Shown here one piece after another: positions 326 through 30,668 of a DNA stretch of 41,714 nucleotides. The stretch is from Acidimicrobiaceae bacterium (GTDB taxonomy: Bacteria > Actinomycetota > Acidimicrobiia > Acidimicrobiales > Aldehydirespiratoraceae). Made by a program: the position numbers and the translations under genes. The number at the start of each line of letters is the position of its first letter. Position 1 is the first letter of the stretch. The stretch is from contig JABIQM010000297.1 in NCBI GenBank assembly GCA_018699415.1, forward strand, positions 1 through 41,714. The letters are read 5' to 3'. The notes beneath the pieces are model-generated. The model made no database searches and was not told the DNA's origin. It worked only from the letters and a program-made list of their open reading frames with translations.

Positions 326-1663
326 ATGCCACGTGAACAGGAATACGTGCTGCGAACCGTCGAGGAGCGCGGCGTTCGACTGATCCGCCTTTGGTTCACC
401 GATGTTCTCGGCAAGCTCAAGTCGGTCGCCATCTCACCCGCCGAACTCGAAGCTGCCTTCACCGACGGCGTGCAGTTCGACGGCACCGCTATTGATGGCT
501 TCTCCCGCATCCACGAATCTGACGTGCTCGCTCGCCCCGACGCCACCACGTTTGAACTCTTACCATGGGCACAATCTGACGAACCGAGCGGTCGGATGTT
601 CTGCAACATCGCCAACCTCGACGGATCGCCGTTTGAGGGCGATCCACGACAAATCCTTCGCCGCAACCTCGACAAAGCCCACGCCGCCGGCTATTCGTTC
701 TTCGCTGCTCCCGAAGCCGAGTTCTTTTACTTCGCCTCCGGTGACTCTGCAGAAGGCCCGCCGCAACCCCTCGACCATGCCGGGTACTTCGACCTCACCA
801 CCGGCGACGTGTCGAGCGATCTACGCAAGCGCACGATCCACATGATCGAGGCGATGGGCATTCCGGTCGAATACTCGTTCCACGAGGACAGCCCTAGCCA
901 GCACGAGATCGACCTTCGCTACACCGAAGCGCTCGACATGGCCGACAACGTCATGACGCTTCGGCTCGTGGTGAAGAAAACAGCGATGGAAAATGGTGTC
1001 TACGCCACGTTCATGCCCAAGCCACTCAACGGCGTGCAGGGCTCAGGAATGCATACACACTTGTCGCTGTTCGAGGGCGAGACCAATGTCTTCCACGACC
1101 CCGACGACGAATACCAGATGTCGACTACGGCCAAGCAATTCACCGCCGGCATCCTTCGCCACGCCCGCGAGATCACCGCAGTCACGAACCAGCTCGTCAA
1201 CAGCTACAAGCGGTTCGCCGAAAAGTCCGAAGCACCCCCCTACGTGTCCTGGGCGCGCAACAATCGCTCGGCTCTCATACGCGTACCGGTGCGAAAGCAG
1301 GGGAAGGCCGAGTCGGCCCGAATCGAATACCGGGCACTCGACGGTGCCTGCAATCCCTACCTCGCCTACTCACTGCTACTTGCCGCCGGGTTACGCGGCA
1401 TTGAGGAGGGCTACGAACTTCCGCCCGAGACAAACGTGAACCTCTTCGAGCTAACGGACCATGAGCGTCGAGAGATCGGTGTCGAGCCGCTACCACGCTC
1501 ACTCGACGAGGCGCTCGACCTGATGGAAGAGTCCAAGCTCGCCCGCGACACCCTCGGTGACCACGTCTTCGAGTGGTTCCTTCGCAACAAACGAGCCGAG
1601 TGGGCCGAGTTTTGCTCCCACGTCACCCCGTTCGAACTCGACCGGTACCTCTCCACCTGGTGA
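326..1663 (+). CDS. glnA: Type I glutamine synthetase (alpha-type, GlnA2-like)
   Basis: Makes glutamine from glutamate, ammonia and ATP in the cytoplasm. At 445 aa it is the usual length for GSI-alpha. Visible signatures are the metal-binding E130/E132 in PEAEFF, GSGMHTH at 239-245, NSYKRF at 292-297 and the R-E-x-R/NPYL segment around 332-346. Arg61 in DGFSR sits where Bacillus GS has the Arg that mediates feedback inhibition in the alpha class. The Tyr of the beta-class adenylylation loop is missing (region 370-380 reads NLFEL), so adenylylation control is unlikely. The ATG has GGAG five bases upstream. A GlnR-like regulator follows after 4 bp. The overall sequence resembles mycobacterial GlnA2 more than GlnA1. 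Confidence 0.95.
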   Translation: MPREQEYVLRTVEERGVRLIRLWFTDVLGKLKSVAISPAELEAAFTDGVQFDGTAIDGFSRIHESDVLARPDATTFELLPWAQSDEPSGRMFCNIANLDGSPFEGDPRQILRRNLDKAHAAGYSFFAAPEAEFFYFASGDSAEGPPQPLDHAGYFDLTTGDVSSDLRKRTIHMIEAMGIPVEYSFHEDSPSQHEIDLRYTEALDMADNVMTLRLVVKKTAMENGVYATFMPKPLNGVQGSGMHTHLSLFEGETNVFHDPDDEYQMSTTAKQFTAGILRHAREITAVTNQLVNSYKRFAEKSEAPPYVSWARNNRSALIRVPVRKQGKAESARIEYRALDGACNPYLAYSLLLAAGLRGIEEGYELPPETNVNLFELTDHERREIGVEPLPRSLDEALDLMEESKLARDTLGDHVFEWFLRNKRAEWAEFCSHVTPFELDRYLSTW

Positions 1664-1667
1664 GCTG

Positions 1668-2345
1668 ATGGATCCTCTGCTCGTCCACCCTGACCCGGCC
1701 CCACCGGAATTGGTCCAGGCCCTCGATATGGGTGGCTGGGCGTGGAAGGGCGCGAGCGATATCGATGCCGCTCGGCGAGACGAACCAGCTAACGGTTGGG
1801 TTGGCGCGATTGTTGTGGCCGGCTCCCAACCTGAGGAAGCATTCCGATTCTGCCGAGCTATCCGCTCCGGTGATGTCAACGTCGATTCCGTCTTGCTGCT
1901 AATCGGTGGCGGGCAGCTTGGCAGCCTCGACTTTCGCGAAGACGTTTTCGACGACTTCTGCCTCTACCCATTCCATCCCGTGGAGCTAGAAGCGCGTTTG
2001 AAGCACCAGTTCCGTCGGTCAGGTCGGGTCGCCCGAGCCGAGGTCATCGAATACGGGGCACTAGCGATGAACCTCGAGACGTATCAAGCGCTCATTGCCG
2101 GCAAGCCGCTTGACCTCACCTATATGGAGTATGAGCTGCTCAAGTTCTTGGCGTCACACCCGGGCAAGGTATTCACCCGCGAGACCCTGCTCAGCCGAGT
2201 GTGGGGCTACGACTACTACGGAGGCGCCCGCACAGTCGACGTTCACGTACGTCGCCTGCGCGCCAAGCTTGGCGAAGAACACGCCAACCTCATCCAAACG
2301 GTGAGGTCCGTCGGCTACAGCTTCGGCGCCAGCCGCTGGGCCTGA
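1668..2345 (+). CDS. GlnR-like orphan response regulator
   Basis: A 225-aa OmpR/PhoB-type regulator. The C-terminal winged helix (about residues 130-222) has the LLKFLASHPGKVFTRE, VWGYDYYGG and DVHVRRLRAKLG stretches characteristic of actinobacterial GlnR, the global nitrogen regulator. The N-terminal receiver-like domain is degenerate: the strand that should end in the phospho-acceptor Asp reads GAIVVAGSQ. Phosphorylation-independent control, as described for GlnR, therefore fits. The ATG at 1668 lies 4 bp after the glnA stop; a longer frame reading back into glnA is ignored because it would overlap the glnA 3' end. It is probably co-transcribed with glnA and may bind the site upstream of it. 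A non-GlnR OmpR paralogue is the alternative. Confidence 0.8.
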   Translation: MDPLLVHPDPAPPELVQALDMGGWAWKGASDIDAARRDEPANGWVGAIVVAGSQPEEAFRFCRAIRSGDVNVDSVLLLIGGGQLGSLDFREDVFDDFCLYPFHPVELEARLKHQFRRSGRVARAEVIEYGALAMNLETYQALIAGKPLDLTYMEYELLKFLASHPGKVFTRETLLSRVWGYDYYGGARTVDVHVRRLRAKLGEEHANLIQTVRSVGYSFGASRWA

Positions 2346-2651: not shown

Positions 2652-2996
2652 CTAAACGGTGGCGACCGCTTCAATTTCGATCTGGGCACCGAGCGGAAGC
2701 TTGGCGACTGCGACAGCGGAGCGTGCAGGACGATGGTCCCCGAACTCCTCCACATAAATGTCGTTCATCACGGCATAGTCGGCCATGTCGACAAGGAAGA
2801 CGGTGGTCTTGACCACGTCGGCAAGCGACGCGTTGGCGGACGAAAGCACATCACGCAGGTTCACGAACACTTGACGAAGTTGGGCCTCGAGCCCTCCTTC
2901 GACGATCGCACCGTCGGCGAGACCGATCTGACCGGAGGTGAAAAGGAGATCGCCACCGCGGACGATGGGCGTGTAAGGACCGACTGGCTTGCTCAT
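2652..2996 (-). CDS. RidA/YjgF family enamine/imine deaminase
   Basis: A 114-aa protein covering the whole RidA fold. It has GPYTPIVRGGDLLFTSGQIG near the N-terminus and the PARSAVAV segment, whose Arg matches the substrate-carboxylate-binding Arg105 of E. coli RidA, then IEIEAVA at the C-terminus. RidA proteins hydrolyse reactive 2-aminoacrylate-type enamines released by PLP enzymes; the substrate range of this member is unknown. An ATG at 3002 is also available, but TAGGCT at 3004-3009 lies exactly 7 bases before the ATG at 2996, which fits a leaderless start there. It follows the molybdenum-hydroxylase fusion gene with 28 bp between. Confidence 0.88.
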   Translation of the reverse strand: MSKPVGPYTPIVRGGDLLFTSGQIGLADGAIVEGGLEAQLRQVFVNLRDVLSSANASLADVVKTTVFLVDMADYAVMNDIYVEEFGDHRPARSAVAVAKLPLGAQIEIEAVATV

Positions 2997-3003
2997 AGCC
3001 ATC

Positions 3004-3024: not shown

Positions 3025-4569
3025 TCAACCAGTAGGCCAATCCTGGGCGCAGCCACTCGCGAGCCATGCGGCTGCGGCAACCGCAGCCATCACGGCATCG
3101 CTTCCATTGACCGGAGGCCCATCGTCAGACTCGATCGTGACGGTGATCAACGGCGTATCAACCGCTCGCAGTATCCCAAACGATCGGACAGTGAGATCAT
3201 GGATGACCCCGTCTGTATCGACGCCGAGCGACTCGCTCGTGACGAGTCCGAGCCCCATGTGGGCGGCTCCGATGCAATAGCTGCGCAAGATCGTCTCGTC
3301 GAGTGGAGCGCCGCAGCGGACGCGGACGTCGACCGAACCATCCTCGAGCACCGACGCAGTAGCAGACCCACCGCCGGGCGCAGTGATCCACCCGACATGT
3401 CCTCGAAGGCCAGCCAACAGCACCACCATCTCGAGCCATCCGGCGCCACGAATGGCAGCCGATGTCGGAGGTCCAGCGACTGTGACCTCTTCGACCTCCA
3501 AGCCGGGACTAACTGTTGTGATCACATCAGCGATGCCAGTGGTACGGGCAACTCGAACGATGCCGCTTCCGTCGGCGCGCACCCCTGCAGCGACCGGCGG
3601 GCGCTTCGGCCCACGATAAACGACGTCCTCGCGCGAGAAGAGCACGCGAACTGGTCGTCCGTGTTCATCGGCCAACCGGCGCGCCACTTCACCGACTTCG
3701 GAATTGACCTTGCCACCGAACGCCCCGGCGTTCTCCAGCGGCGAAACCGGCTCATCCCCAGGGGCACACCAGGCCGCGTCAGTCTCAAGATAACCGGGCT
3801 CGGTCCAACTCGTTCGCAACGTACGCGCCCAGTCACCCGCCGGCATCTCGATCGGCGGAGAGAATTCCGCAGTGGTACGGCGGCCCTGGACCTTGCCCGC
3901 AAGACGCAAGGCTTCAGCCCGGGTGGGAGCGACCACCCACTCGCCTGTCGACGCGTCGAGAACGGCAGCCAAGGCGTCAGCGGGAGCGGTGTCATCGGCG
4001 AACCCGCCTCGGCCAATCGCTACATCCGGATCAGTCGACTGGGCCGACCCGCCTTCGAGTTCAGCTCGCTGGGAAGCTGCCTCGGATCGGACCGCTCCGG
4101 TGGCTGTCGGGAAGGCTACCCAGGCATCAACAATCGGTTGCCATCCGGTGCAGCGGCACATGTGGGCGAGCAGCGAATCAGCAGCGACGCCGCGGTCATC
4201 GTGGCGTGCGCCCTTGGACCGCAGCCCTTCGAAGCGGCAGATGATACCTGGCGTGCAAAACCCACACTGGCTGCCACCAGTCTCGGCAAACGCATCGACC
4301 CAGCGATCAGCATCCGTCGTATCGATCCCATCAACCGTCGTGATCTCACGACCGCGCATTCGACGCACCGGCGTCACGCACGACACCCGAGGTTGACCAT
4401 CAACAAGCACCGTGCAGCAGCCGCACTGACCTTGCGGGGAACACCCGTCCTTGACCGACGTCTTGCCTGCCGCCCGCAGAACATCGAGCAAGGTTGCCGT
4501 CTCATCGTCGACGGCTACGGGCTCGCCATCGACGATGACCTCAAGAGAACGATGCGCATCGGTTGCCAT
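3025..4569 (-). CDS. [2Fe-2S] ferredoxin fused to a short molybdenum-hydroxylase domain
   Basis: A 514-aa fusion. Residues 1-150 are a xanthine dehydrogenase/CO dehydrogenase small-subunit module: plant-type [2Fe-2S] cysteines at C43, C49, C52 and C64, and the second cluster at C102/C105 (QCGFCTPG) and C138/C140 (CRCTG). Residues from about 185 resemble the molybdopterin large subunit, with GAFGGK, GRPVRVLFSRED and a C-terminal PPVNGSDAV segment. At about 330 aa that part is less than half the normal length. The usual AYRxxxR active-site loop and the late GEAG/GEPP glutamate region are not visible. It may be an electron-transfer or regulatory derivative, or a reduced enzyme. Tandem ATGs occur at 4572 and 4569; TAGCCT at 4577-4582 is 7 bases from 4569. 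Confidence 0.8.
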   Translation of the reverse strand: MATDAHRSLEVIVDGEPVAVDDETATLLDVLRAAGKTSVKDGCSPQGQCGCCTVLVDGQPRVSCVTPVRRMRGREITTVDGIDTTDADRWVDAFAETGGSQCGFCTPGIICRFEGLRSKGARHDDRGVAADSLLAHMCRCTGWQPIVDAWVAFPTATGAVRSEAASQRAELEGGSAQSTDPDVAIGRGGFADDTAPADALAAVLDASTGEWVVAPTRAEALRLAGKVQGRRTTAEFSPPIEMPAGDWARTLRTSWTEPGYLETDAAWCAPGDEPVSPLENAGAFGGKVNSEVGEVARRLADEHGRPVRVLFSREDVVYRGPKRPPVAAGVRADGSGIVRVARTTGIADVITTVSPGLEVEEVTVAGPPTSAAIRGAGWLEMVVLLAGLRGHVGWITAPGGGSATASVLEDGSVDVRVRCGAPLDETILRSYCIGAAHMGLGLVTSESLGVDTDGVIHDLTVRSFGILRAVDTPLITVTIESDDGPPVNGSDAVMAAVAAAAWLASGCAQDWPTG

Positions 4570-4576
4570 CATCGTG

Positions 4577-4594: not shown

Positions 4595-5458
4595 ATGAGT
4601 CATGTATGTCGACGCACGTTCCTGATCGGATCCGCCGCCATCTCTCTCGCCACCGCCTGCGGAAGCAGCAGCACTCCTGCAGCTGCACCCGAGTTTCTCG
4701 TCGTTCGATTTCCCGACGGATATCGGGCCGCCTCGACCATGATCGCCGGGATCGAGCAGCGCATGCCGTTCGCGATCTCTGACTCTGTCGACATCATGCG
4801 CGAGAGTGCGCCAGACCACCTCACATTCATTGTCACCCGCGGCGACACGGTGATCACTGAGACCTCGGTCACCGCACACCGCTCGGGCATCATCACGCCG
4901 TACTACCCACTGAAGGTGACGTTCCCCGATGCAGGCGCCTATGTCGTGTCATTGGCCGACTACCCCGACATTTCGCCCATAGACATTCTGATCGCCGACG
5001 CCGGCGAAGTCTCGCTACTTCAGCCCGGCGACCGCCTCCCCGCCATCGGCACGCCAACGCTCGATGACAGCCGCGGTGTCGTTGACCTCTGCACTCGAGC
5101 CATCGACTGCCCGTTCCACGACCACAATCTCAACGACGTTTTGGCCAACGGCCGGCCTACCGTGTTGCTCATCGCCACGCCAGGTTTCTGCCAGACCGAC
5201 ATCTGCGGCCCGGTGGTCGACCTCCTCATCGAGGAGGCGCCAGCCTACGACAGCATCGACTTCATCCACGCCGAGGTCTACGTCGACCCAGCCGACTTCA
5301 CCTCCGGTAAGTTCCCCGACACATCCCCCATCGTTGCATCGCTAGGGCTCCCTTACGAGCCCATCTTGTTCGCAGCAAACGGTGACGGCAAAATCATCGC
5401 CCGTCTCGACCTGGCATGGGACCGCGTCGAACTGAACGAGGCCATCGCAACGCTTTAG
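4595..5458 (+). CDS. Exported lipoprotein with thioredoxin-like (redoxin) domain
   Basis: A 287-aa protein. The N-terminus has a twin-arginine pattern (CRRTFLIG, residues 5-12), a hydrophobic run and a lipobox-like LATAC ending at C22, so Tat export and lipid anchoring are likely. Residues 30-130 form a beta-rich region I cannot name. From about 150 a thioredoxin-like domain carries the cysteine pair FCQTDICGP, spaced C-x4-C rather than the C-x2-C of thioredoxin or C-x3-C of SCO1. It also contains DLCTRAIDCPFHDH, which may bind metal. The role is probably extracytoplasmic thiol or metal redox chemistry. It starts 25 bp from the divergent molybdenum-hydroxylase fusion. TACGGT at 4581-4586 lies 8 bases before the ATG. 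Confidence 0.75.
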   Translation: MSHVCRRTFLIGSAAISLATACGSSSTPAAAPEFLVVRFPDGYRAASTMIAGIEQRMPFAISDSVDIMRESAPDHLTFIVTRGDTVITETSVTAHRSGIITPYYPLKVTFPDAGAYVVSLADYPDISPIDILIADAGEVSLLQPGDRLPAIGTPTLDDSRGVVDLCTRAIDCPFHDHNLNDVLANGRPTVLLIATPGFCQTDICGPVVDLLIEEAPAYDSIDFIHAEVYVDPADFTSGKFPDTSPIVASLGLPYEPILFAANGDGKIIARLDLAWDRVELNEAIATL

Positions 5459-5497: not shown

Positions 5498-5818
5498 TTA
5501 GCTAAAGGACGAACCGCAGCCACAGGTGCGCTGGGCGTTGGGGTTGTCGATCGAGAAGCCGGCGTCTTGGAGACCATCTTTGTAGTCGAGGGTTGCACCC
5601 TCGAGAAGCTGGGCGGACGACGGGTCAACGACCACGCCGACGCCGTTGTAATCAGCGATGAGATCTTCGGTGTCACGGTCGGTGTCGAAGTACATCTCGT
5701 AGGAAAAACCGCTACATCCACCAGGGCGCACGGCGACACGAAGGGCAAGGCCATCTTCGCCTTCAGCGCTGATGAGTTCGCCAACTTTGCCTACGGCACG
5801 ATCGGTAAGGGTGATCAT
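5498..5818 (-). CDS. HesB/IscA/ErpA-type iron-sulfur cluster insertion protein
   Basis: A 106-aa A-type carrier. It has the three conserved cysteines C35 (GGCSGF) and C99/C101 (TCGCG), which bind or hand over [2Fe-2S]/[4Fe-4S] clusters in this family. The length is standard. AGGAG lies 7 bases before the ATG at 5818. It is divergently arranged with mrp, another Fe-S carrier gene, 86 bp away, suggesting joint demand for cluster delivery. It converges with the redoxin lipoprotein. Whether it is the ErpA or IscA orthologue cannot be decided from sequence alone. Confidence 0.93.
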   Translation of the reverse strand: MITLTDRAVGKVGELISAEGEDGLALRVAVRPGGCSGFSYEMYFDTDRDTEDLIADYNGVGVVVDPSSAQLLEGATLDYKDGLQDAGFSIDNPNAQRTCGCGSSFS

Positions 5819-5898: not shown

Positions 5899-5904
5899 GA
5901 AGTG

Positions 5905-7083
5905 GTGCCCCACATCGCACCCCCGACCACCGAGCATGTCATGGGTCTTTTGCGTGGCGTGATTGACCCAGAGCTTGGGTCTGACATCGTCGAGTTGGGC
6001 ATGGCCAAGGGCGCTCAGGTCAGCGAGGACGGCGTCGTTGTCCTCGAGATCGCACTCACTACGTCGGGCTGTCCGCTGCGAGCGCAGATCCAAAAAGACA
6101 TCCGCAGCCGCCTCACCAACCTTCCCGGTGTCACCAGGGTGAAAATCAACTGGGGCGAGCTCACCCAAGACGAACGGGCTGAGGCGATGTCCAAGGCGCG
6201 CTTCAACGTCAGCCAGGATGCCCCTGACACCGCCATCCCCCCCACCACCAAAGTTGTGATGATTGCGTCGGGCAAGGGTGGTGTCGGCAAGTCGTCGATC
6301 ACCACCAACCTCGCCGCTGCTCTCGCCGAAAAAGGCTACGCCGTCGGTGTGATGGACGCAGATATCTGGGGCTTCTCCGTGCCGCGCATGCTTGGCGTCG
6401 AAGGCGATCTGCTCTCTGTTGAGGGCAAGATTCAGCCGCTGGTTCGCGAGATCGGCGAGGGCCGAGTCGAGATCGTGTCGATGGGCTTTCTTGTCGCCAA
6501 GGAAGACTCCGCCCTCATGTGGCGAGGACTCATGCTGAACCGTGCCGTTCAGCATTTCTGCCAAGACGTCGGCTGGCCTGATGACCTTGACTATCTTCTG
6601 ATCGACATGCCGCCAGGCACCGGCGACGTCCAGATGGGTCTCGCCAAGATGCTTCCGCGAGCCGAGATGGTGATCATTACCACTCCGGCTCTGAATGCTC
6701 AGAAGGTGGCAGCGCGCGTCGCCGATATGGGCCGCAAAAATTACCTCCGCATCGTGGGTGTCATCGAGAACATGACCGAGTTCGTTGCCCCGGACGGGTC
6801 CCGCCACGCGCTATTCGGTGCTGGTGGTGGGCAGCAACTCGCCGACGACATCGGTGTTCCGCTCCTCGGCAGTGTTCCCATCGAGCCAATCGTCAGCGCC
6901 GGCGGTGATACCGGCGAACCCGCCTCTCTCGGTGAGGGTGATGCCGCCGACGTGCTGCGGGGGATCGCTACCGCGATCGCCGAGGAGTACGTACCCCCGA
7001 TCGAAATGGCCGGCTGTAGCGCCCGCATGCTCGACGCGGCCGTGGCCGCCCTCGACCAACTCGACCTCGACGAATCAGCCTGA
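5905..7083 (+). CDS. mrp: Mrp/NBP35-family Fe-S carrier ATPase (ApbC)
   Basis: A 392-aa protein with an N-terminal MIP18/DUF59 domain (about 1-85, with TTSGCPL near residue 55) and a P-loop ATPase domain with deviant Walker A GKGGVGKSS at 123-131 and DMPPGTGD further on. Mrp/ApbC proteins load Fe-S clusters onto apo-proteins using ATP. The CPxC pair that binds the bridging cluster in classical members is absent: the matching place reads VIENMTEFVAPDGS. GTG codons at 5902 and 5905 are both possible; the -10 spacing favours 5905. It is divergent from the IscA-type gene. Confidence 0.92.
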   Translation: MPHIAPPTTEHVMGLLRGVIDPELGSDIVELGMAKGAQVSEDGVVVLEIALTTSGCPLRAQIQKDIRSRLTNLPGVTRVKINWGELTQDERAEAMSKARFNVSQDAPDTAIPPTTKVVMIASGKGGVGKSSITTNLAAALAEKGYAVGVMDADIWGFSVPRMLGVEGDLLSVEGKIQPLVREIGEGRVEIVSMGFLVAKEDSALMWRGLMLNRAVQHFCQDVGWPDDLDYLLIDMPPGTGDVQMGLAKMLPRAEMVIITTPALNAQKVAARVADMGRKNYLRIVGVIENMTEFVAPDGSRHALFGAGGGQQLADDIGVPLLGSVPIEPIVSAGGDTGEPASLGEGDAADVLRGIATAIAEEYVPPIEMAGCSARMLDAAVAALDQLDLDESA

Positions 7084-10402: not shown

Positions 10403-11668
10403 GTGACTGATCCCGCTCCCTCGCAACGTCCACCGTCGGTCGACAAGCTGGCCCGATCGCTCTCTGACGTTGGCCTGCCCCACCCGATGCTGGTGGATGC
10501 AGCCCGAGCCGCGATCGCCAGCGGCAAACCAGACGTCGCCCGCCAGATCGCTGAAGACATGGCCCGTCGCCTGCTGCGACCAGTCATCAACGGCACAGGC
10601 ACGTTGCTCCACACCAACCTCGGCCGAGCTCCACTGGCCTGGGAGCAACCGGAGAGCTACTCCAACCTCGAGCTCGATCTCTCCACCGGCGAGCGCGGCT
10701 CGCGTATGGCCACCGCGCCGGCACTCCTGGCGCGAGCCTGCGGTGCCGAGGCGGCACTCGTCGTAAACAACTGTGCCGCCGCTGTGCTCCTTGTTCTGGC
10801 CGGGCTTGCTGAGGGACGCGATGTCGTCGTCTCTCGTAGCGAACTAGTTGAGATCGGCGGGGGCTTCCGTGTGCCTGAGGTGATGGACCGTTCTGGTGCT
10901 CGCCTTGTTGAGGTCGGCACAACCAACCGCACTCGCAGGGCCGACTTTGCCAAAGCCGTCGACAACCCGGCCAATGATGTTGGTGTCATCCTTCAGGTTC
11001 ATCAGTCCAACTACAAAATTGTTGGCTTCACCGAAGCTCCTCGTACTGCGGAGCTCGCCGACCTGGGTCCAACGCTCGTTGCCGATATCGGCTCTGGACT
11101 GCTCGATTCTCGTTGCCCCTGGCTTGATGGCGGCCCGCCCGGTTGGCTCGCTGATGAGCCCGCCGCTCGTCAGACCCTTGAGGCGGGTGCCAACCTTGTG
11201 ACGTTTAGCGGCGACAAGCTTCTCGGCGGGCCCCAGGCGGGGATCATCGCCGGCGATGCCGATCTCGTGGCGTCCTGCGCCCGCCACCCGCTGGCGCGTG
11301 CCCTTCGCCCCGGCTCACTTGTCTTGGGAGCGCTCCAAGCCACAGCTCTCGCGTACCTTCGCAATGATGGCCAGGCCATCCCGTTCTGGCGGATGGCCTC
11401 GACTCCTGTTGAACAACTCCGCTCCCGCGCCGTCGCTCTCGGCATCGGTGATGTGGTCGATGTCACGTCCACTCCTGGCGGCGGCACATTGCCTGGTGTC
11501 GAAATGCCATCTGTCGGCGTCGCTATCAACGGCGATCACCGCGCCGTGTTACGTGAACGCGAACGACCGCTCATCGGACGAATAATCGATAGCCGCACAG
11601 TGCTCGACATGCGTACCATTCACCCCGGCGACGACAGCGAAGTCGCTGAGGCGCTGGCTGGCCTCTGA
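10403..11668 (+). CDS. selA: L-seryl-tRNA(Sec) selenium transferase
   Basis: A 421-aa PLP enzyme that converts Ser-tRNA(Sec) to Sec-tRNA(Sec) with selenophosphate. Family signatures are [16 protein letters not shown] at 63-78, [16 protein letters not shown] at 146-161, EVGTTNRT at 170-177 and [13 protein letters not shown], where K272 is the PLP lysine. Length is slightly below the roughly 460 aa of E. coli SelA. GTG start 7 bp after the phosphotransferase stop; selB follows after 16 bp. Neither selD nor a tRNA-Sec is in the window. Confidence 0.95.
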
Positions 11669-11684
11669 TGCAGACGTCACGCTG

Positions 11685-13403
11685 ATGCACGTTGTCGCCA
11701 CCGCAGGCCATGTCGACCACGGCAAATCAACGCTCATCAAGGCACTTACCGGCACTGATCCCGATCGCCTCGACGAGGAGAAGGCCCGCGGCCTCACCAT
11801 CGATCTCGGCTTTGCCGGCACCAAGCTTCCGTCCGGTAGGGGGATCTCCTTCATCGATGTGCCCGGTCATGTGCGCTTCCTCAAGAACATGCTCGCCGGG
11901 GTCGGCGGTGTCGACGCGTGCCTCTTCGTCGTCGCCGCCACGGAAGGCTGGAAGCCCCAGAGCGAGGAGCACTTGCGAATCCTGTCACTGCTCGGTATCC
12001 GCCACGGCATGATTGCACTCACCAAGGTCGGCCAGGCCGACGAAGAGTTGGTCGAACTCGCCATGCTCGAAATCGGCGACCGGGTTGCCGGCACGTTCCT
12101 CGCCGACGCACCCATCGTTCCCGTGGACGCCATCGATGGCATCGGCCTCAGCGACCTCGGTGCGGCGCTCGACGAACTGCTCGACAACACGCCAACTGCA
12201 ACCGACCTCAAGAAACCCCGCCTCTGGATCGACCGTGTCTTCGCAGCCAAAGGTGCCGGAACCGTTGTCACCGGCACCCTCACCGGCGGACTCATCCGCG
12301 TGGATGATGAATACACGACGCTTCCCCATGGCATCGACGTGCGGGTGCGTGCCCTGCAGAGCCAGCACGCCGGCCGTACCAAGATCCCACCGGGCAATCG
12401 TGTGGCTGCGAATCTCGGTGGCGTGAGCCACGACCAACTCACCCGCGGCGACGTGCTTGTACGGGCAGATCAGTGGCACGTAACCCGTCGAGTCGACGCA
12501 TCCCTTGATGTCCTCCAGTCGCTCGACCGTCCTGTCAGTAGGCGCGGTGCTCACGTTGCCTACTTCGGCAGCGGCGAACACTCGGTTCGCCTTCGTGTGC
12601 TCGGCCCTGACACGATCGATCCCGGCGAGAGCGGCTTCATCCGCCTTCACCTCCCTCAGGGGCTTCCCTTAGTTCCCGGCGATCGCTTCATCATCCGTGA
12701 ATCGGGCCAAGGCGTCACCTTGGGTGGTGGCGAGATCCTCGATGTCGATCCACTGGTCGCCGCGGCGAAAGCGCGACCGGACCGCAACATCGATCGGGTG
12801 ATCGCCGAGCGTGGCCGCGTCGACATCGATCATTTGTTGCGCCTCACCGGCGAACGTCGACTACCCGATGTTGGCAACTGGGCTGTGGCCCCAAGCGAAA
12901 TCGATGCCACCAAACAGCGGATTCGCGGTGCCGTGGACCAGGCCGGTTCACTTGGCCTCGACCTGGCATCGCTTGATGACTTCGAACGAGCCGTGCTCGA
13001 CACCCTCGGCGAGTTGTCCATCGACGGCGGTCACGTGCGAGTTGCTACGGCGGCCGATCCTCTGGCCGAGCATTCGTTCGTCGATCAGCTGGCCGCTGCA
13101 CCGTTCGATCCCCCCGATCCTGAGGGGATCGATCGAGCAGAGTTGCGGGAGCTTGTCAGGCGAGGGGACGTCGTGGAGGAGGACGGCGTATTCTTTGCCG
13201 CCTCAGCAATCGACGATGCCGCTCTCGTGGTAGCAAAGCTTCTGAAGGAAAACCCTGAAGGAATCACCGTGGCTCAGGCCCGTGATGCGTGGGGGACAAC
13301 ACGTAAGTTCGCGATCCCGCTCATCACCCGTCTCGACAACACCGGCGTCACGCGTCGTCGCGATGACCTCCGGATCGCCGGACCGCGGCTTCCCGCCCTT
13401 TAG
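11685..13403 (+). CDS. selB: Selenocysteine-specific elongation factor
   Basis: A 572-aa translation GTPase that delivers Sec-tRNA(Sec) to SECIS-marked UGA codons. G1 is GHVDHGKST (8-16), G2 RGLT (35-38), G3 DVPGH (58-62). The G4 motif, normally [N/T]KxD, reads TKVG at 113-116, so the guanine-reading Asp is replaced by Gly. EF-Tu-like beta-barrels follow, and the C-terminus has the winged-helix repeats that bind SECIS RNA, ending in a typical segment [18 protein letters not shown] start. It is co-directional with selA and probably in one operon. Confidence 0.95.
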
Positions 13404-24397: not shown

Positions 24398-25084
24398 GTG
24401 AGCCGCCGGTACTTCTCCCCCGACCTATTCGCCTTTCTCCGTGACCTGGCCGTCAACAACAACCGGGCCTGGTTCAACGAGCACAAGGCCCGCTACGAGG
24501 CGTCGGTGCGCCAACCCGCACTCGACTTCATCACCGACTTTGTCGAACCACTCGAGGGACTCTCACCGTACTTCGTCGCCGACTCTCGGACTGTCGGAGG
24601 ATCGCTCTTTCGGATCCACCGCGACACGCGATTCGCCAAGGATAAGACGCCGTACAAGCTCAATACCGGCATGCATTTTCGCCACGAACGGGCAAAGGAT
24701 GCCCACGCTCCTGGGTTTTACGTGCACCTCCAGCCTCGTAGCTGCTTCATCGGAGTTGGACTCTGGATGCCTGAGCCGAGGGTGGCGCACCAGATTCGTG
24801 CGCACATCGATGAGAACCAAGACGAATGGATCGCGGCAACGCAGAATACGGCATTCATCTCAATGTACGAACTCGGTGGGGACTCATTGAAGCGTCCACC
24901 TCGCGGTTTCGAAGCCGAGCACCCATTACTCACAGACATGAAGCGAAAGAGCTTCATCGCCACAGCCCCGATCACGCACGCGGACGTGACTACGAGCTCA
25001 TTTCGCGCGGACCTGGCTGAACGATTCGCAGTCGCGGCGCCATTAATGAAGTTCCTCTGCGCCGCAGTCGGCGTGAAGTACTAG
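24398..25084 (+). CDS. DUF2461 family protein
   Basis: A 228-aa protein of the DUF2461/TIGR02453 family, of unknown function. It shows the family blocks FLRDLAVNNNRAWFNEHKARYE near the start, LFRIHRDTRFAKDKTPYKLN (near 70-90) and GFYVHLQP with a later GVGLW. Cytoplasmic, with no signal or span. GTG start. Its stop overlaps that of the CoxL-like gene by 4 bp in a convergent arrangement. Confidence 0.88.
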   Translation: MSRRYFSPDLFAFLRDLAVNNNRAWFNEHKARYEASVRQPALDFITDFVEPLEGLSPYFVADSRTVGGSLFRIHRDTRFAKDKTPYKLNTGMHFRHERAKDAHAPGFYVHLQPRSCFIGVGLWMPEPRVAHQIRAHIDENQDEWIAATQNTAFISMYELGGDSLKRPPRGFEAEHPLLTDMKRKSFIATAPITHADVTTSSFRADLAERFAVAAPLMKFLCAAVGVKY

Positions 25085-27363
25085 TTCACCTCCGCGGCGG
25101 ACATGGCATTCCACACTCGTTGAGGAGTGGTGGGCATCTCGATATGACGAATGCCAAGGTGAGACAGAGCGTCGACTACCGCGTTGTGGACTGCGGGGCC
25201 GGCGCCAATCGTGCCCGCCTCGCCTATGCCCTTGGCCCCGAGGGGATTTCGATCTGTTGGTGTCTCCAAGGCGGTGCGCTCAAAGCTCGGAAACTCGGCT
25301 GCAGACATGAACGCGTAATCCATGAAGTTGCTGGTGAGCGGGTTGCCATCGTCGTCGTAGACAAACTCTTCCATCAGCGTGTGGGCAATGCCGGAGGCGA
25401 CGCCACCGTGCACCTGCCCGTCGAAGATGAGTGGATTGATGATCGTGCCCGCGTCATCACAGGAGATGTGCCGCAACACCGAGACCTCACCGGTGTCGCG
25501 GTCGATCTCCACAACCGACAGGTGAGCTCCGAACGGAAAAGTCGCACCAGTCGGCTGGAAGTCCGTCTCGGCCTTCAGAACGTCACCGGTCGTCGCCTCG
25601 AGATGGCCCGCCACCTCAGACCAAGTTTTACTGATCGAGGGAGAGCCCGTCACCGCGAACCCACCCGTCTCGATGTTGAGCACGATGTCGGCCGGGTTGG
25701 CTTCGAGTAAATCGGCAGCTGCTTTGCGAGCCTGATCGACCACCATCTCGCTCGCCTCATACACCGCCGTTCCGCCCACCTGGAGCGAGCGGGAACCACC
25801 GGTACCGCCACCTCGGGGCACTTCGTCTGTATCACCGTGACGGACAACGATCTTGTCGAACGGGATACCGGTGATATCGGCAGCCAACTGCGCGAACGCC
25901 GTGTGATGCCCCTGGCCGTGCGATGAAGAACCGGTCAGCACCACTGCACTCCCGTCCGTCTTGATCTCGATGCTGCCGAACTCCGGCGCACTCATCGGAT
26001 TGGTGATTTCGACATACGTCGACCATCCAAGACCGAGAAGTTTGGCACTGGGGTCCGTCCGGCGGCGGGCCTGTTCAGCGCGTAGGCCGACATAGTCGGC
26101 GGCCTCGATCACGGCATCCATCGCCTTGGCATACTCGCCGCTGTCCATGTCAGCCCCGGTTTGGGTTGTCATCGGAAAGGCATCCGGCGGAATGAAATTG
26201 ATGCGACGTACAGCGGCGGGATCCATCTCGATCTCCATCGCGAAGGCATCCATCATCCGTTCAAGTGGCGTGGTCGCCTCGGGGCGACCAGCCCCGCGGT
26301 ACGCGCCGGTTGGTGACGTGTTCGTGACAACCGAGGTTGATTCAAAGTCAAACTTCTCGATGTCGTACACGCCGAGAGCCATGATGCGTGTGAACATTGG
26401 AAGCAAGCAGCCGATATTTGGATAGGCGCCACCGTCTTGGATCATCTTGATCCGGTAGGCCTTCACTCGACCGTCACGGTCGCCTCCAATCGTCAGTTCG
26501 TAATACAGCGACCGGGCATGAGCCAGGCCGAGCATGCTTTCCGAACGCGTCTCCGTCCAACGAACCGGACGGTCAACGGCCCGGGCCACCGCGGCCGTGA
26601 CCATATCCTCGGGATAGAGGCCGTTCTTCCCTCCGAAACCACCGCCAACATCAGGGGTGATGACGTGTACATCAGTCGCGTCGACGCCCATGCCCGCGGC
26701 CATGTCGTCCCGGGTGCGATGAGGGAACTGGGTGCAGGACCATTGAGTGAGTCGCACCTGCCCGTTCTCGTCAGCGGCCCAATGCGAGACAGCGGAGCGG
26801 GGTTCCATTGGCGCCACCGACATACGTGGGTTTCGCATAGCCAGGTCGACGGTAACTTCACACTCAGCGAACATGTCCTGCTCGTCGGGGCTAGGAACAT
26901 GCCATGCAATATTGGTGCTGGCATCGGGGAACAGCAGCAGATCGTCCTTGATGGACTCACGGATGTCGACGACGGCGTCCAGTGGCTCGTAATCAACGAA
27001 CACCACCTCAGCGGCATCGACACCCTGCTCACGCGTCTTGGTGACAACTGCCGCTACCAGTTCGCCCACGAAGCGAGCACGGTCACTGGCGAGCCAGGTC
27101 CGCAGCATCTCCTGGTTGAGCATCGGCAGGCCGGGAGGCTTGGCTTCGAGGGCAAGGTCTGAAGCGGTGAAAATTCCAACCACTCCAGGCATGTCCATCG
27201 CCTCTGCGGTGTCGATGGCAAGGATCTTTGCATGGGCCATCAACGACCGCACGAAGGTGATGTGGAGGGCATCGCTCGGTCCGACATCGGCCACATACAT
27301 ACCGCCGACAGTAAGAAAGTCGGGGTCTTCCGTGCGGATAACCCGGTTTCCAATCATGCTCAT
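25081..27363 (-). CDS. Molybdenum hydroxylase large subunit, form II CoxL-like
   Basis: A 760-aa full-length xanthine dehydrogenase/CO dehydrogenase large subunit. It has GGGFGGK at 240-246, the active-site loop AYRGAGR at 354-360, SHGQGHHT, and GAKGIGEAG near the C-terminus with the catalytic Glu. True CO dehydrogenases (form I) read AYRCSFR, so this is the form II/aldehyde-oxidase-like class whose substrate is uncertain. The usual medium (FAD) and small ([2Fe-2S]) subunits are not adjacent; the only [2Fe-2S] module in the window is the fusion at 3025-4569. ATG 27363 chosen; ATG 27357 is also possible. Confidence 0.92.
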   Translation of the reverse strand: MSMIGNRVIRTEDPDFLTVGGMYVADVGPSDALHITFVRSLMAHAKILAIDTAEAMDMPGVVGIFTASDLALEAKPPGLPMLNQEMLRTWLASDRARFVGELVAAVVTKTREQGVDAAEVVFVDYEPLDAVVDIRESIKDDLLLFPDASTNIAWHVPSPDEQDMFAECEVTVDLAMRNPRMSVAPMEPRSAVSHWAADENGQVRLTQWSCTQFPHRTRDDMAAGMGVDATDVHVITPDVGGGFGGKNGLYPEDMVTAAVARAVDRPVRWTETRSESMLGLAHARSLYYELTIGGDRDGRVKAYRIKMIQDGGAYPNIGCLLPMFTRIMALGVYDIEKFDFESTSVVTNTSPTGAYRGAGRPEATTPLERMMDAFAMEIEMDPAAVRRINFIPPDAFPMTTQTGADMDSGEYAKAMDAVIEAADYVGLRAEQARRRTDPSAKLLGLGWSTYVEITNPMSAPEFGSIEIKTDGSAVVLTGSSSHGQGHHTAFAQLAADITGIPFDKIVVRHGDTDEVPRGGGTGGSRSLQVGGTAVYEASEMVVDQARKAAADLLEANPADIVLNIETGGFAVTGSPSISKTWSEVAGHLEATTGDVLKAETDFQPTGATFPFGAHLSVVEIDRDTGEVSVLRHISCDDAGTIINPLIFDGQVHGGVASGIAHTLMEEFVYDDDGNPLTSNFMDYAFMSAAEFPSFERTALETPTDRNPLGAKGIGEAGTIGAGPAVHNAVVDALSHLGIRHIEMPTTPQRVWNAMSAAEVN

Positions 27364-27490
27364 AGTCTTGGTGTCTAGCAAAAATTTCCGTCGATCCTTG
27401 AACTCGAGTCCTAGGGCCCGGTTGTGGCCCGTTCATGGGTTCGTGCGCCCTCGTCGCAAGATGGTGGACGGACTCGCACGGGTTCGGCGG

Positions 27491-28081: not shown

Positions 28082-30103
28082 TCAGTCGAGATTTGGGCGA
28101 CCGCTGGCGACAGCTACAGCTGTGCCTTCGACAAACATGGGCCGACCATCGACGTCGATGACCTTCTCGGTCCATATCGTCTCGATCTCAAAATCGACAG
28201 TGCCTGCATCGACTGCACGCTGTGCTGCTGCCTCGGTGGCCAATATCTCGGCGCGCTCTTGGGCATGGGGACGTTCCCACTCAGTCTCGGGGTCGGTGCC
28301 AGAGTGGATGCGGTAGACGCCTCGACGAGGAGACGTGACCATAATCTCAGCCCGGACACGGACCCTACCGACGACCGCACCGATCGCGTTCGCCACCCCA
28401 GCATGCTCGGGGACTTCGACACTGCATCCAAGTAACTCACCGATAGCCGGGTAGTAGGTGCTAGCGGGAGCGCCGAGCCCGATGAGGGGAACGTCGAGTC
28501 CGGCCACCAGGCGGGCGCTTCGCGTCGTGCCGTCGATGGCAGCGGTGACGATCGCCGAGGTCGATGCTTCCGCCGGGAGGCCGTCGCGCACGAGGGCAGC
28601 GTTGAGCAACGCCTCCGCCGAACGGCGAACGAGTGTGTCGATGACCACCACGCTGATGGTTTCACCCGCTGTCGCTGCTTCAGAGCTTTCTGCGATGGCC
28701 CGGCCGTAACGATCTCGGCGACGGGCAAACAGTTCTGCCCCAAGCTGGGCTGCTTCGGCATCGTTGGTGGCTTGACGTCCGAGGACATGACTCGCGTCAG
28801 TAGGCGTGAATGCAGACATCCGCAGCACTCCTCGGCCGACGAGTCGACGAACAGCACGCTCCTGCAAGCTCGTCCGGACGACCCCGCTCACAGGCTGAAC
28901 TTCGCCACCCAACGTATCGACAACCTCTTGTTCGAAGCGATCAAGCTTGGCGTTGTGAATGCGTGCCGTTGGTTCAACAAAAACGCCATCCCATGCCCCC
29001 GGAATGCCACTGTCCAACTGCCGTCGCAGAATGGAGTGCACGACATCTCCAACCCGGTCAGCGAGGAGGCTCAGCGGCACGACACGTCGCGGGCCGACCC
29101 GCAGTTCGGGCCCCACCGCACGATCGATGAGCACTACCTCGCTGTCGCCGCCCAATCCGTGCGTATGCATCATCACCGCCTCGACCATGGTGCGATGACC
29201 ACCAACGCTCGCGCCATCCGCGCTGAACTCTGGAAGGCCGTCGCGCACAACTGCGATGTCGGTGGTGGTTCCACCGACATCGGAGATCACGGCGTCATTT
29301 GCATCGGCGAGGTGGGCAGCGCCGACAAGGCTTGCCGCCGGGCCCGAAAGGATCGTCTCCACCGGTCGATCGCGCACAAAGTCCGTCGACACAAGCGAGC
29401 CGTTGCCACGAACGATCATCATCGGCGCATCGATGCCCCGCTCTTGAAGAATCGAACCAGTCGTAGCGACGAGTTCGTCGATCAGGGCGATCAGCCGCGA
29501 GTTGAGTAGCGCCGTGACGCCCCGTTTCGGGCCATTAAGCCGCGCAGACAGATGATGGCTACACGTGACTGGCTTGCCGGTGCGCTCACGAATCAGGTCG
29601 CGGGCGGCGAGCTCATGCTCAGCATTGCGGGTGGCGAACTGTGCTGTCACCGCGAATGCGTCGACCTGATCCACGACGGTATCGATCTCGTTGGCCAGGG
29701 CGTCAAGGTCCAGGGGCGCTACCCGCTCCCCGTGCGACGTGTGGCCGCCATCTACGACGATGACAGCATCGGAACCAATCGCCTCGCGCAGGCCTGCGCG
29801 ATCGAGAGCGTCTGCTTCGAATCCGATGGTCACAAGACATGCCGGCCGACCAGTTCCCTCGACGAGTGCGTTGGTGGCGAGGGTGGTCGAGAGTGCAACC
29901 ATTCGGATCGCCGCAGGCTCCACGGCCGCCAAGCCAATCGCCGCATCAATCGCGCCGCGTATACCGATCGACAGGTTGTCGTGCGTCGTCGGCGACTTGG
30001 CCGTGGCCAGGATGGCGCGTGCGTCTTCGTCGTAGACCACCGCGTCGGTGTAGGTGCCGCCGGTGTCAACCCCAAGTGCGATCCGGCGATGGTGTGCAGC
30101 CAT
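28082..30103 (-). CDS. Hydantoinase/oxoprolinase subunit A (HyuA-like)
   Basis: A 673-aa actin-fold ATPase subunit. The N-terminal domain begins ALGVDTGGTYTDAVV and the HyuA domain contains VISDVGGTTTDIAVV, the two phosphate-binding loops. HyuA and HyuB together hydrolyse N-methylhydantoin, 5-oxoproline or carboxylate ketones with ATP. No HyuB gene is in the window, and this protein is far too short to be a fused A+B enzyme (about 1200 aa). ATG 30103 fits the family N-terminus; upstream extension is ignored. It is divergent from the FMN-binding gene. Confidence 0.9.
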   Translation of the reverse strand: MAAHHRRIALGVDTGGTYTDAVVYDEDARAILATAKSPTTHDNLSIGIRGAIDAAIGLAAVEPAAIRMVALSTTLATNALVEGTGRPACLVTIGFEADALDRAGLREAIGSDAVIVVDGGHTSHGERVAPLDLDALANEIDTVVDQVDAFAVTAQFATRNAEHELAARDLIRERTGKPVTCSHHLSARLNGPKRGVTALLNSRLIALIDELVATTGSILQERGIDAPMMIVRGNGSLVSTDFVRDRPVETILSGPAASLVGAAHLADANDAVISDVGGTTTDIAVVRDGLPEFSADGASVGGHRTMVEAVMMHTHGLGGDSEVVLIDRAVGPELRVGPRRVVPLSLLADRVGDVVHSILRRQLDSGIPGAWDGVFVEPTARIHNAKLDRFEQEVVDTLGGEVQPVSGVVRTSLQERAVRRLVGRGVLRMSAFTPTDASHVLGRQATNDAEAAQLGAELFARRRDRYGRAIAESSEAATAGETISVVVIDTLVRRSAEALLNAALVRDGLPAEASTSAIVTAAIDGTTRSARLVAGLDVPLIGLGAPASTYYPAIGELLGCSVEVPEHAGVANAIGAVVGRVRVRAEIMVTSPRRGVYRIHSGTDPETEWERPHAQERAEILATEAAAQRAVDAGTVDFEIETIWTEKVIDVDGRPMFVEGTAVAVASGRPNLD

Positions 30104-30143
30104 GGACGGACAGTCTGCCGCCGCAAACGATGCAGATGCGACA

Positions 30144-30149
30144 TACATT
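30144..30149 (+). promoter_or_regulatory. -10 box for leaderless FMN-protein transcript
   Basis: TACATT, six bases before ATG 30156. Confidence 0.45.
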
Positions 30150-30155
30150 TGCCCG

Positions 30156-30668
30156 ATGACAACGCCACGCGCCGAACGGCCTGACATGGCCGACTACGGC
30201 GTCACCGACAACCCCGAAGGATTGCTTCCGTGGTCATGGGCCGAGGAGCGACTCGTGGGCACACGAAACTTCTGGTTTGTGACTGCCAACTCTGTCGGTC
30301 GGCCCCACGCGATGCCCGTCTGGGGCGTGTGGATGCCCGATCGTCAGCGCTGGGGGGCGGGCTTCGCCGCGTCGGCGCGCAAGGTCCGCAACATGCAGGC
30401 CAACGACCAAGTCGTAGTCACCACCGAAACCTCCGTCGAATGTGTATCGGTCGAAGGGCGTGCACTTGCGGTCACCGGCGACGAGGCCGAGTCGCTGGTG
30501 AAGTCATGGGCCGACAAGTACTTTAAGGAAACCGGGCAGGACCGTGAAGAAACCATGGCGTTCATGCGCGAGAGCAGCTTGTGGGAAGTCATCCCCCATC
30601 GGGCCTTCGGCATGATCGAAACGCCAGAGCAGTTCTCGTCCGCGGCAACGCGCTGGGTCTGGAAGTAG
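30156..30668 (+). CDS. Pyridoxamine-phosphate-oxidase-like FMN/F420 split-barrel protein
   Basis: A 170-aa split-barrel flavoprotein. It has FWFVTANSVGRPHAMPVWGVWM, then SARKVRNMQANDQVVVTTE and VEGRALAVTG, the typical strand order. In actinobacteria such proteins use FMN or F420; which one applies here is not shown. The C-terminal PHRAFGMIETPEQFSSAATRW is usual. The ATG matches a leaderless promoter. It converges with the nitroreductase gene. Confidence 0.88.
   Translation: MTTPRAERPDMADYGVTDNPEGLLPWSWAEERLVGTRNFWFVTANSVGRPHAMPVWGVWMPDRQRWGAGFAASARKVRNMQANDQVVVTTETSVECVSVEGRALAVTGDEAESLVKSWADKYFKETGQDREETMAFMRESSLWEVIPHRAFGMIETPEQFSSAATRWVWK

Follow-up and report, generated by a model that had tools for sequence, protein, structure and literature searches.

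The 41,714-nucleotide contig of an Acidimicrobiaceae bacterium, which was analyzed here as a whole (the window), encodes on its minus strand, at 3025..4572, a protein which begins like a molybdenum hydroxylase and continues with only part of a large subunit. The question raised by this gene is what such a protein, referred to below as mini-XDH, could do. The open reading frame, its orthologues, their dN/dS ratios and an AlphaFold (AF2) model define it as a protein with two [2Fe-2S] domains whose C-terminal half is a shrunken part of a molybdenum hydroxylase, and the data suggest that it has probably become an iron-sulfur protein of a new kind, which is maintained across a bacterial class. The frame contains no internal stops, and it specifies 515 amino acids from the upstream ATG or 514 from the second ATG at 4569. 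The Pfam models Fer2 (residues 14–61) and Fer2_2 (residues 79–150, E-value 3.9e-16) both scored above their curated cut-offs. The plant-type [2Fe-2S] domain extends over residues 10–78 (4339..4545, minus strand) with cysteines C44, C50, C53 and C65, while the four-helix [2Fe-2S] domain occupies residues 79–150 (4123..4338, minus strand) with C103, C106, C139 and C141. All eight cysteines, which are also conserved in the two [2Fe-2S] domains of the active xanthine oxidase family, are present in the host protein and in every examined orthologue that is not truncated at the edge of its contig, and based on these conserved motifs both clusters are predicted to be bound and redox-active. Hence, the complete two-cluster module and the absence of a frameshift, which had been proposed in an initial annotation of this DNA, were both borne out; the short length is shared by orthologues throughout the class.

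The relationship of mini-XDH to known enzymes was apparent from its N-terminal part. A sequence search of the PDB returned matches confined to the FeS part, and the best NCBIfam model was TIGR03311 (Se_dep_XDH), which was matched by all 43 aligned members of the mini-XDH family (best E-value 6.2e-47). For mini-XDH itself the match covered only residues 11–195 and reached 128 bits, far below the curated equivalog cut-off of 830 bits, while two full-length fused enzymes tested with the same model gave 791 bits, slightly below the cut-off. The FeS-domain tree placed the mini proteins in one group and the full-length proteins in another; these two groups were sisters, separate from the CoxS-type domains, and the support of the mini branch was 93/89. 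As judged from these sequence comparisons, the closest full-length relative of mini-XDH is the fused XdhD/Se_dep_XDH type, in line with the initial remark that a fused ferredoxin–Moco architecture is known from selenium-dependent hydroxylases. The XdhD type, with about 860 amino acids in a fused [2Fe-2S]2–Moco arrangement, has the same domain order as mini-XDH; the two-cluster N-terminal modules are about 40%–50% identical and have the GQCGCCTV motif in common, and the Moco remnants are collinear. Unlike the XdhD type, mini-XDH has lost about half of the Moco part together with the catalytic glutamate and three cofactor-site motifs, is encoded at a different locus, and is retained in Moco-less genomes. 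Fused full-length FeS–Moco enzymes of about 860–890 amino acids often occur in the genomes that carry mini-XDH, including the host genome. The host's full-length Se_dep_XDH-type gene is located at the end of another stretch (L051, 1–2154), beside an amidohydrolase-type gene set which resembles a purine/pyrimidine-breakdown cluster, as far as the gene functions can be read by eye.

The structure prediction suggested by the initial annotation gave a confident model (pLDDT 89.2, pTM 0.90), which Foldseek overlaid on nearly the whole of the Desulfovibrio gigas aldehyde oxidoreductase (1sij) with TMq 0.70 and an E-value of 1.9e-18. This extent of the overlay suggests that the ancestral architecture was kept and that pieces were cut out of it. 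The Desulfovibrio aldehyde oxidoreductases (MOP; 1sij, 1dgj) are the best whole-chain structural match and share with mini-XDH the fused architecture lacking FAD, but they have 907 residues versus 515, and in mini-XDH the Moco site is dismantled and Glu869 replaced. The same pair of two-cluster domains is found in the stand-alone CoxS/XdhC-type [2Fe-2S] subunits (1rm6_C, 1n5w_A), which have about 160 amino acids and belong to L–M–S complexes, whereas mini-XDH does not need a large subunit and contains an additional conserved half of 350 amino acids.

This additional half (residues 165–515; 3028..4080, minus strand) is what remains, in remodeled form, of the Moco large subunit, as identified by hhalign alignment to full-length paralogues and by the Foldseek overlay on 1sij. 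It has about 350 amino acids, close to the approximately 330 noted initially, and instead of the complete MoCoBD_1 and MoCoBD_2 domains of the active xanthine oxidase family it gave only sub-threshold Pfam traces, which covered MoCoBD_1 at residues 283–333 and, for MoCoBD_2, just its C-terminal end at residues 420–474. In hhalign comparisons with the full-length paralogues the part 160–330 aligned with 95.8% probability and the part 395–515 with 97.8%, while no profile alignment to full-length relatives was obtained for residues ~325–420. The profile alignments showed that residues 7–155 correspond to the FeS module, ~184–206 to the start of the hammerhead domain, ~213–270 to the end of this domain together with the entry of the Moco lobe, 279–328 to the stretch from GGAFGGK to KRPP, and 424–475 and onward to the C-terminal part of MoCoBD_2. 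Missing by comparison with a full-length paralogue are the hammerhead core, the segment with GGQGVWD, and about 220 residues which hold the first half of MoCoBD_2 with GQGVHT and GSRGT. Hence, about half of the Moco part has been excised, and the catalytic glutamate was lost along with three motifs of the cofactor site; in the molybdenum-hydroxylase family the lost motifs other than GVGE contact the cofactor. The GVGE motif of the full-length relatives aligns with GVGELP of 1sij and corresponds to Glu869 of the D. gigas enzyme. The conserved catalytic glutamate is Glu869 in D. gigas aldehyde oxidoreductase and Glu1261 in bovine xanthine oxidoreductase (PMC4726530). In mini-XDH the sequence NGSDAV (residues 489–494; 3091..3108, minus strand) takes the place of this G-x-G-E motif, and nearly all orthologues have S, T or G followed by D at the glutamate position, so that the earlier report of a missing GEAG glutamate proved right. 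The AYR loop, by contrast with that report, is not wholly absent, because a degenerate form, AIRGAGWLE, can be read directly at residues 373–381 (RGAGW, 375–379; 3436..3450, minus strand); it is conserved in orthologues, with R375, A377 and G378 nearly invariant, although its equivalence to the FRG loop was read by eye inside the non-alignable stretch. The NAGAFGGK loop (residues 281–288; 3709..3732, minus strand), which is the equivalent of GGTFG in 1sij and of the GGxFG loop with which full-length enzymes bind Moco, is retained. The QGRRTT motif (residues 229–234; 3871..3888, minus strand) is kept in the mini family, including its divergent members, and was not found in the full-length relatives.

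The internal deletions relative to the ancestor and the patchy loss of the gene could suggest a decaying deletion pseudogene, as would orthologues of full length (about 900 amino acids) in close relatives. Orthologues were searched for in 60 relatives, in 296 genomes of Acidimicrobiia and in a named genome collection, and they had the same short length, about 500–600 amino acids, with 52%–91% identity within the order. About 120 of the 296 sampled Acidimicrobiia genomes contained a match at E<=1e-60, in single copy and almost always free of stops, and these orthologues span some thirty families and more than one order of the class. At the same threshold mini-XDH was confined to Acidimicrobiia in a sample of 296 Actinomycetota, and there was no match in about 270 other Actinomycetota outside the class. 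Two records labeled Acidobacteria have the Acidimicrobiia gene block around mini-XDH, and are probably mislabeled bins. The dN/dS values between near orthologues were 0.05–0.13 for the FeS part and 0.03–0.19 for the pieces of the remnant, which indicates at the sequence level that the C-terminal remnant is under strong purifying selection. The class-wide short form, these low ratios, the near absence of stops and the conservation of all cluster cysteines leave the pseudogene explanation with a negligible chance of being correct. The gene is nevertheless dispensable, as it was lost in many lineages.

Whether the retained protein still depends on molybdenum was addressed by comparing gene contents. 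Among the genomes carrying mini-XDH, fourteen (G039, G045, G046, G047, G055, G059, G268, G411, G414, G422, G523, G543, G578 and G594) contained no MoCoBD_2 protein at E<=1e-5 and hence no large subunit of this fold; the completeness of G046 is 70%, and that of the others 91%–97%. A further genome, G076, gave one weak MoCoBD_2 match (1.2e-6), which is probably mini-XDH itself. None of the 13 mini-XDH genomes lacking a large subunit that were tested had XdhC over the cut-off. The MocA model TIGR03310 is weak for this class, in which no genome reached its cut-off, so that the comparison used only the extent of the matches, which were full-length in genomes that carry XDH and partial in mini-only genomes. 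The clearest case is a family designated f23, in which MoeA was found in none of the 12 mini-XDH-bearing genomes, nor in any of the 19 f23 genomes searched, while the same search detected it in five other Acidimicrobiia genomes. Eight mini-XDH-bearing f23 genomes were also tested for other Moco enzymes; they contained no SUOX-fold protein and one PF00384 protein each, which in the four f23 genomes checked (G268, G594, G578 and G414) was NuoG, a Moco-free relative. Two f23 genomes that were checked for MoaC (G058 and G268) have it with weaker scores, that is, a MoaC-like gene with no visible Moco pathway. The orthology of mini-XDH in f23 is secured by synteny at three loci (L163, L242 and L243), where the protein retains the cysteines, the QGR motif, KRPP, DLTIRSFG and the GAFG loop. 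As MoeA and other Moco enzymes were not detected in f23, mini-XDH must work there independently of molybdenum, and the persistence of the GAFG loop in this family suggests that the retained loop need not mean cofactor binding.

These observations bear on the idea that mini-XDH is a small hydroxylase or reductase which has kept a reduced form of molybdopterin or Moco binding. The GGAFGGK loop and the arginine of the FRG loop are indeed retained, as is the cofactor site on its cluster-II side, and the search for MoaC gave matches in nearly every genome, although for the latter reason MoaC is uninformative on Moco dependence. With the catalytic glutamate gone, three motifs of the cofactor site lost, and the protein occurring in genomes devoid of MoeA, XdhC, MocA and other detected Moco enzymes, a Moco-dependent mini-enzyme appears quite improbable, and is disfavored in particular by the gene absences in f23 and by the identification of the PF00384 proteins as NuoG. 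Some residual cofactor or pterin binding may occur in Moco-making genomes, as the retained loop and cluster-II side would allow. Overall, it is very likely that mini-XDH is a molybdenum-free, repurposed scaffold.

The initial annotation had offered three roles, a non-catalytic electron shuttle, a Moco chaperone, or a partner for an orphan large subunit placed at 25081–27363. The CoxL-type gene at 25081–27381 encodes a full-length, intact large subunit, whose best NCBIfam match, below cut-off, was glyceraldehyde dehydrogenase alpha. It adjoins a hydantoinase/oxoprolinase-like gene (28082–30187). That this subunit lies in the same window, with no CoxS or CoxM recognized beside it, could make mini-XDH its electron-transfer partner or Moco chaperone, but the two genes are about 21 kb apart in no visible shared operon, and the fourteen genomes described above keep mini-XDH while having no large subunit of this fold. 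The co-occurrence with client large subunits that marks an XdhC-like chaperone was not found either. Because mini-XDH persists in many genomes lacking XDH/CoxL-type large subunits, lacking XdhC over the cut-off and, in f23, lacking MoeA, both the chaperone and the CoxL-partner roles lost their support, and this explanation was left with only a very slim likelihood. The protein is apparently non-catalytic, as had been proposed, and an electron shuttle would be the likeliest of the three roles. A link to selenium had also been suggested; SelA (10403–11668) and SelB (11685–13403), both over curated cut-offs, are indeed encoded in the window, and selAB lie downstream from the mini-XDH block in many relatives. 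No selC tRNA was found within the window. Selenocysteine in mini-XDH was rejected, since there is no in-frame stop, and as many mini-XDH loci have no selAB nearby, nothing ties the protein to selenium beyond its ancestry.

The genes surrounding mini-XDH offer a different context. A conserved arrangement, mrp< erpA> MINI> ridA> glnR< glnA<, is found throughout the order and also outside it. In the window, a RidA-family imine/enamine deaminase (2652..3002, minus strand; TIGR00004 over cut-off and PF01042) is encoded 22 nt downstream from mini-XDH, and the A-type Fe-S carrier ErpA (5498..5818, minus strand; NF010147 over cut-off) upstream. Divergent from erpA is an Mrp/ApbC-type Fe-S carrier ATPase (5902..7083, plus strand), supported by synteny and by its best NCBIfam matches, MrpORP/ApbC, which are below the equivalog cut-offs. 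The conserved block also includes glutamine synthetase (326..1663, plus strand; TIGR00653 over cut-off, synteny) and an orphan response regulator (1662..2345, plus strand; PF00486 Trans_reg_C, synteny), which we take to be GlnR-like from its position beside glnA. Between mini-XDH and erpA, a divergent gene for a predicted Tat-type lipoprotein (4595..5458, plus strand), which has no Pfam or NCBIfam match, starts about 22 bp from the mini-XDH start; a gene of this kind is found at this spot in many, though not all, relatives. The gene for mini-XDH adjoins ridA across the class, mostly with a gap of -10 to +100 nt, and where no gene intervenes it follows erpA with a gap of mostly -12 to ~110 nt, the two being direct neighbors in many relatives. 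Based on gene order and spacing, erpA, mini-XDH and ridA are likely one transcription unit. In genomes that lack mini-XDH the block is often intact, with erpA and ridA adjacent (L222, L226, L227, L229, L230 and L231), so that mini-XDH behaves as a clean presence/absence element in a standing operon, into which it was possibly inserted. This pattern supports its co-expression with ErpA and weakens the case for a function shared with RidA. No fusion of mini-XDH with erpA or ridA was found, as the long upstream open frames had no similarity to either, and a Rosetta-stone argument was thus rejected. The titles and abstracts retrieved in literature searches contained nothing relevant on an erpA–ridA operon, on truncated or pseudoenzyme members of the family, or on XDH of Acidimicrobiia.

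The erpA gene upstream on the same strand, often within ~100 nt, the Mrp/ApbC carrier encoded divergently next door, and the independence from Moco could together point to a dedicated Fe-S biogenesis factor, whose clusters or electrons would serve ErpA directly. Such a factor could reductively couple two [2Fe-2S] clusters to [4Fe-4S], or act as a [2Fe-2S] holder or sensor, and the XDH remnant would provide a platform for docking. We consider this rather unlikely, since the gene order may stem from a chance insertion, erpA and mrp are kept in many Acidimicrobiia that have no mini-XDH, and no erpA fusion was found. A related proposal, which we put forward only tentatively and regard as doubtful, is that mini-XDH is a Moco-independent, two-cluster, lineage-specific partner both of RidA and of ErpA, serving the latter by donating electrons or holding clusters; it would then be, with a similarly low likelihood, an unrecognized component of Fe-S/imine homeostasis in Acidimicrobiia.

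We find it, on balance, somewhat more likely than not that mini-XDH is a molybdenum-free, repurposed XdhD/Se_dep_XDH derivative which provides a redox service. A fused hydroxylase of this type has lost about half of its Moco part and kept both [2Fe-2S] domains, which ErpA, encoded just upstream in the likely erpA–mini–ridA unit, probably supplies with clusters. The two predicted clusters would carry single electrons, and the former molybdopterin pocket may dock a different electron partner or a small ligand, at a site putatively formed by the new conserved residues QGRRTT, KRPP, RGAGW, LRSY..GA.H and DLTIRSFG. The most likely job would be redox service in the surrounding Fe-S/nitrogen module (ErpA, Mrp, RidA, GlnR and GlnA), with mini-XDH as a dedicated ferredoxin-like donor or acceptor. 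As erpA and ridA are neighbors even where mini-XDH is missing, the gene may have been inserted into an existing operon, in which case its neighborhood would not stem from a shared function.

Mini-XDH provides a natural case in which a complex metalloenzyme was cut to half of its catalytic subunit and lost its metal cofactor, while the fold and the Fe-S clusters were conserved across a class. Annotation pipelines would label it as a xanthine dehydrogenase fragment or an Fe-S subunit, and such labels would lead to an over-prediction of Moco-dependent metabolism in Acidimicrobiia. If the link to ErpA and RidA is true, the handling of Fe-S clusters or of reactive imines would be expected to include a redox step new to these pathways. 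The protein also offers a stand-alone scaffold for studying the role of the Moco lobes after loss of the cofactor.
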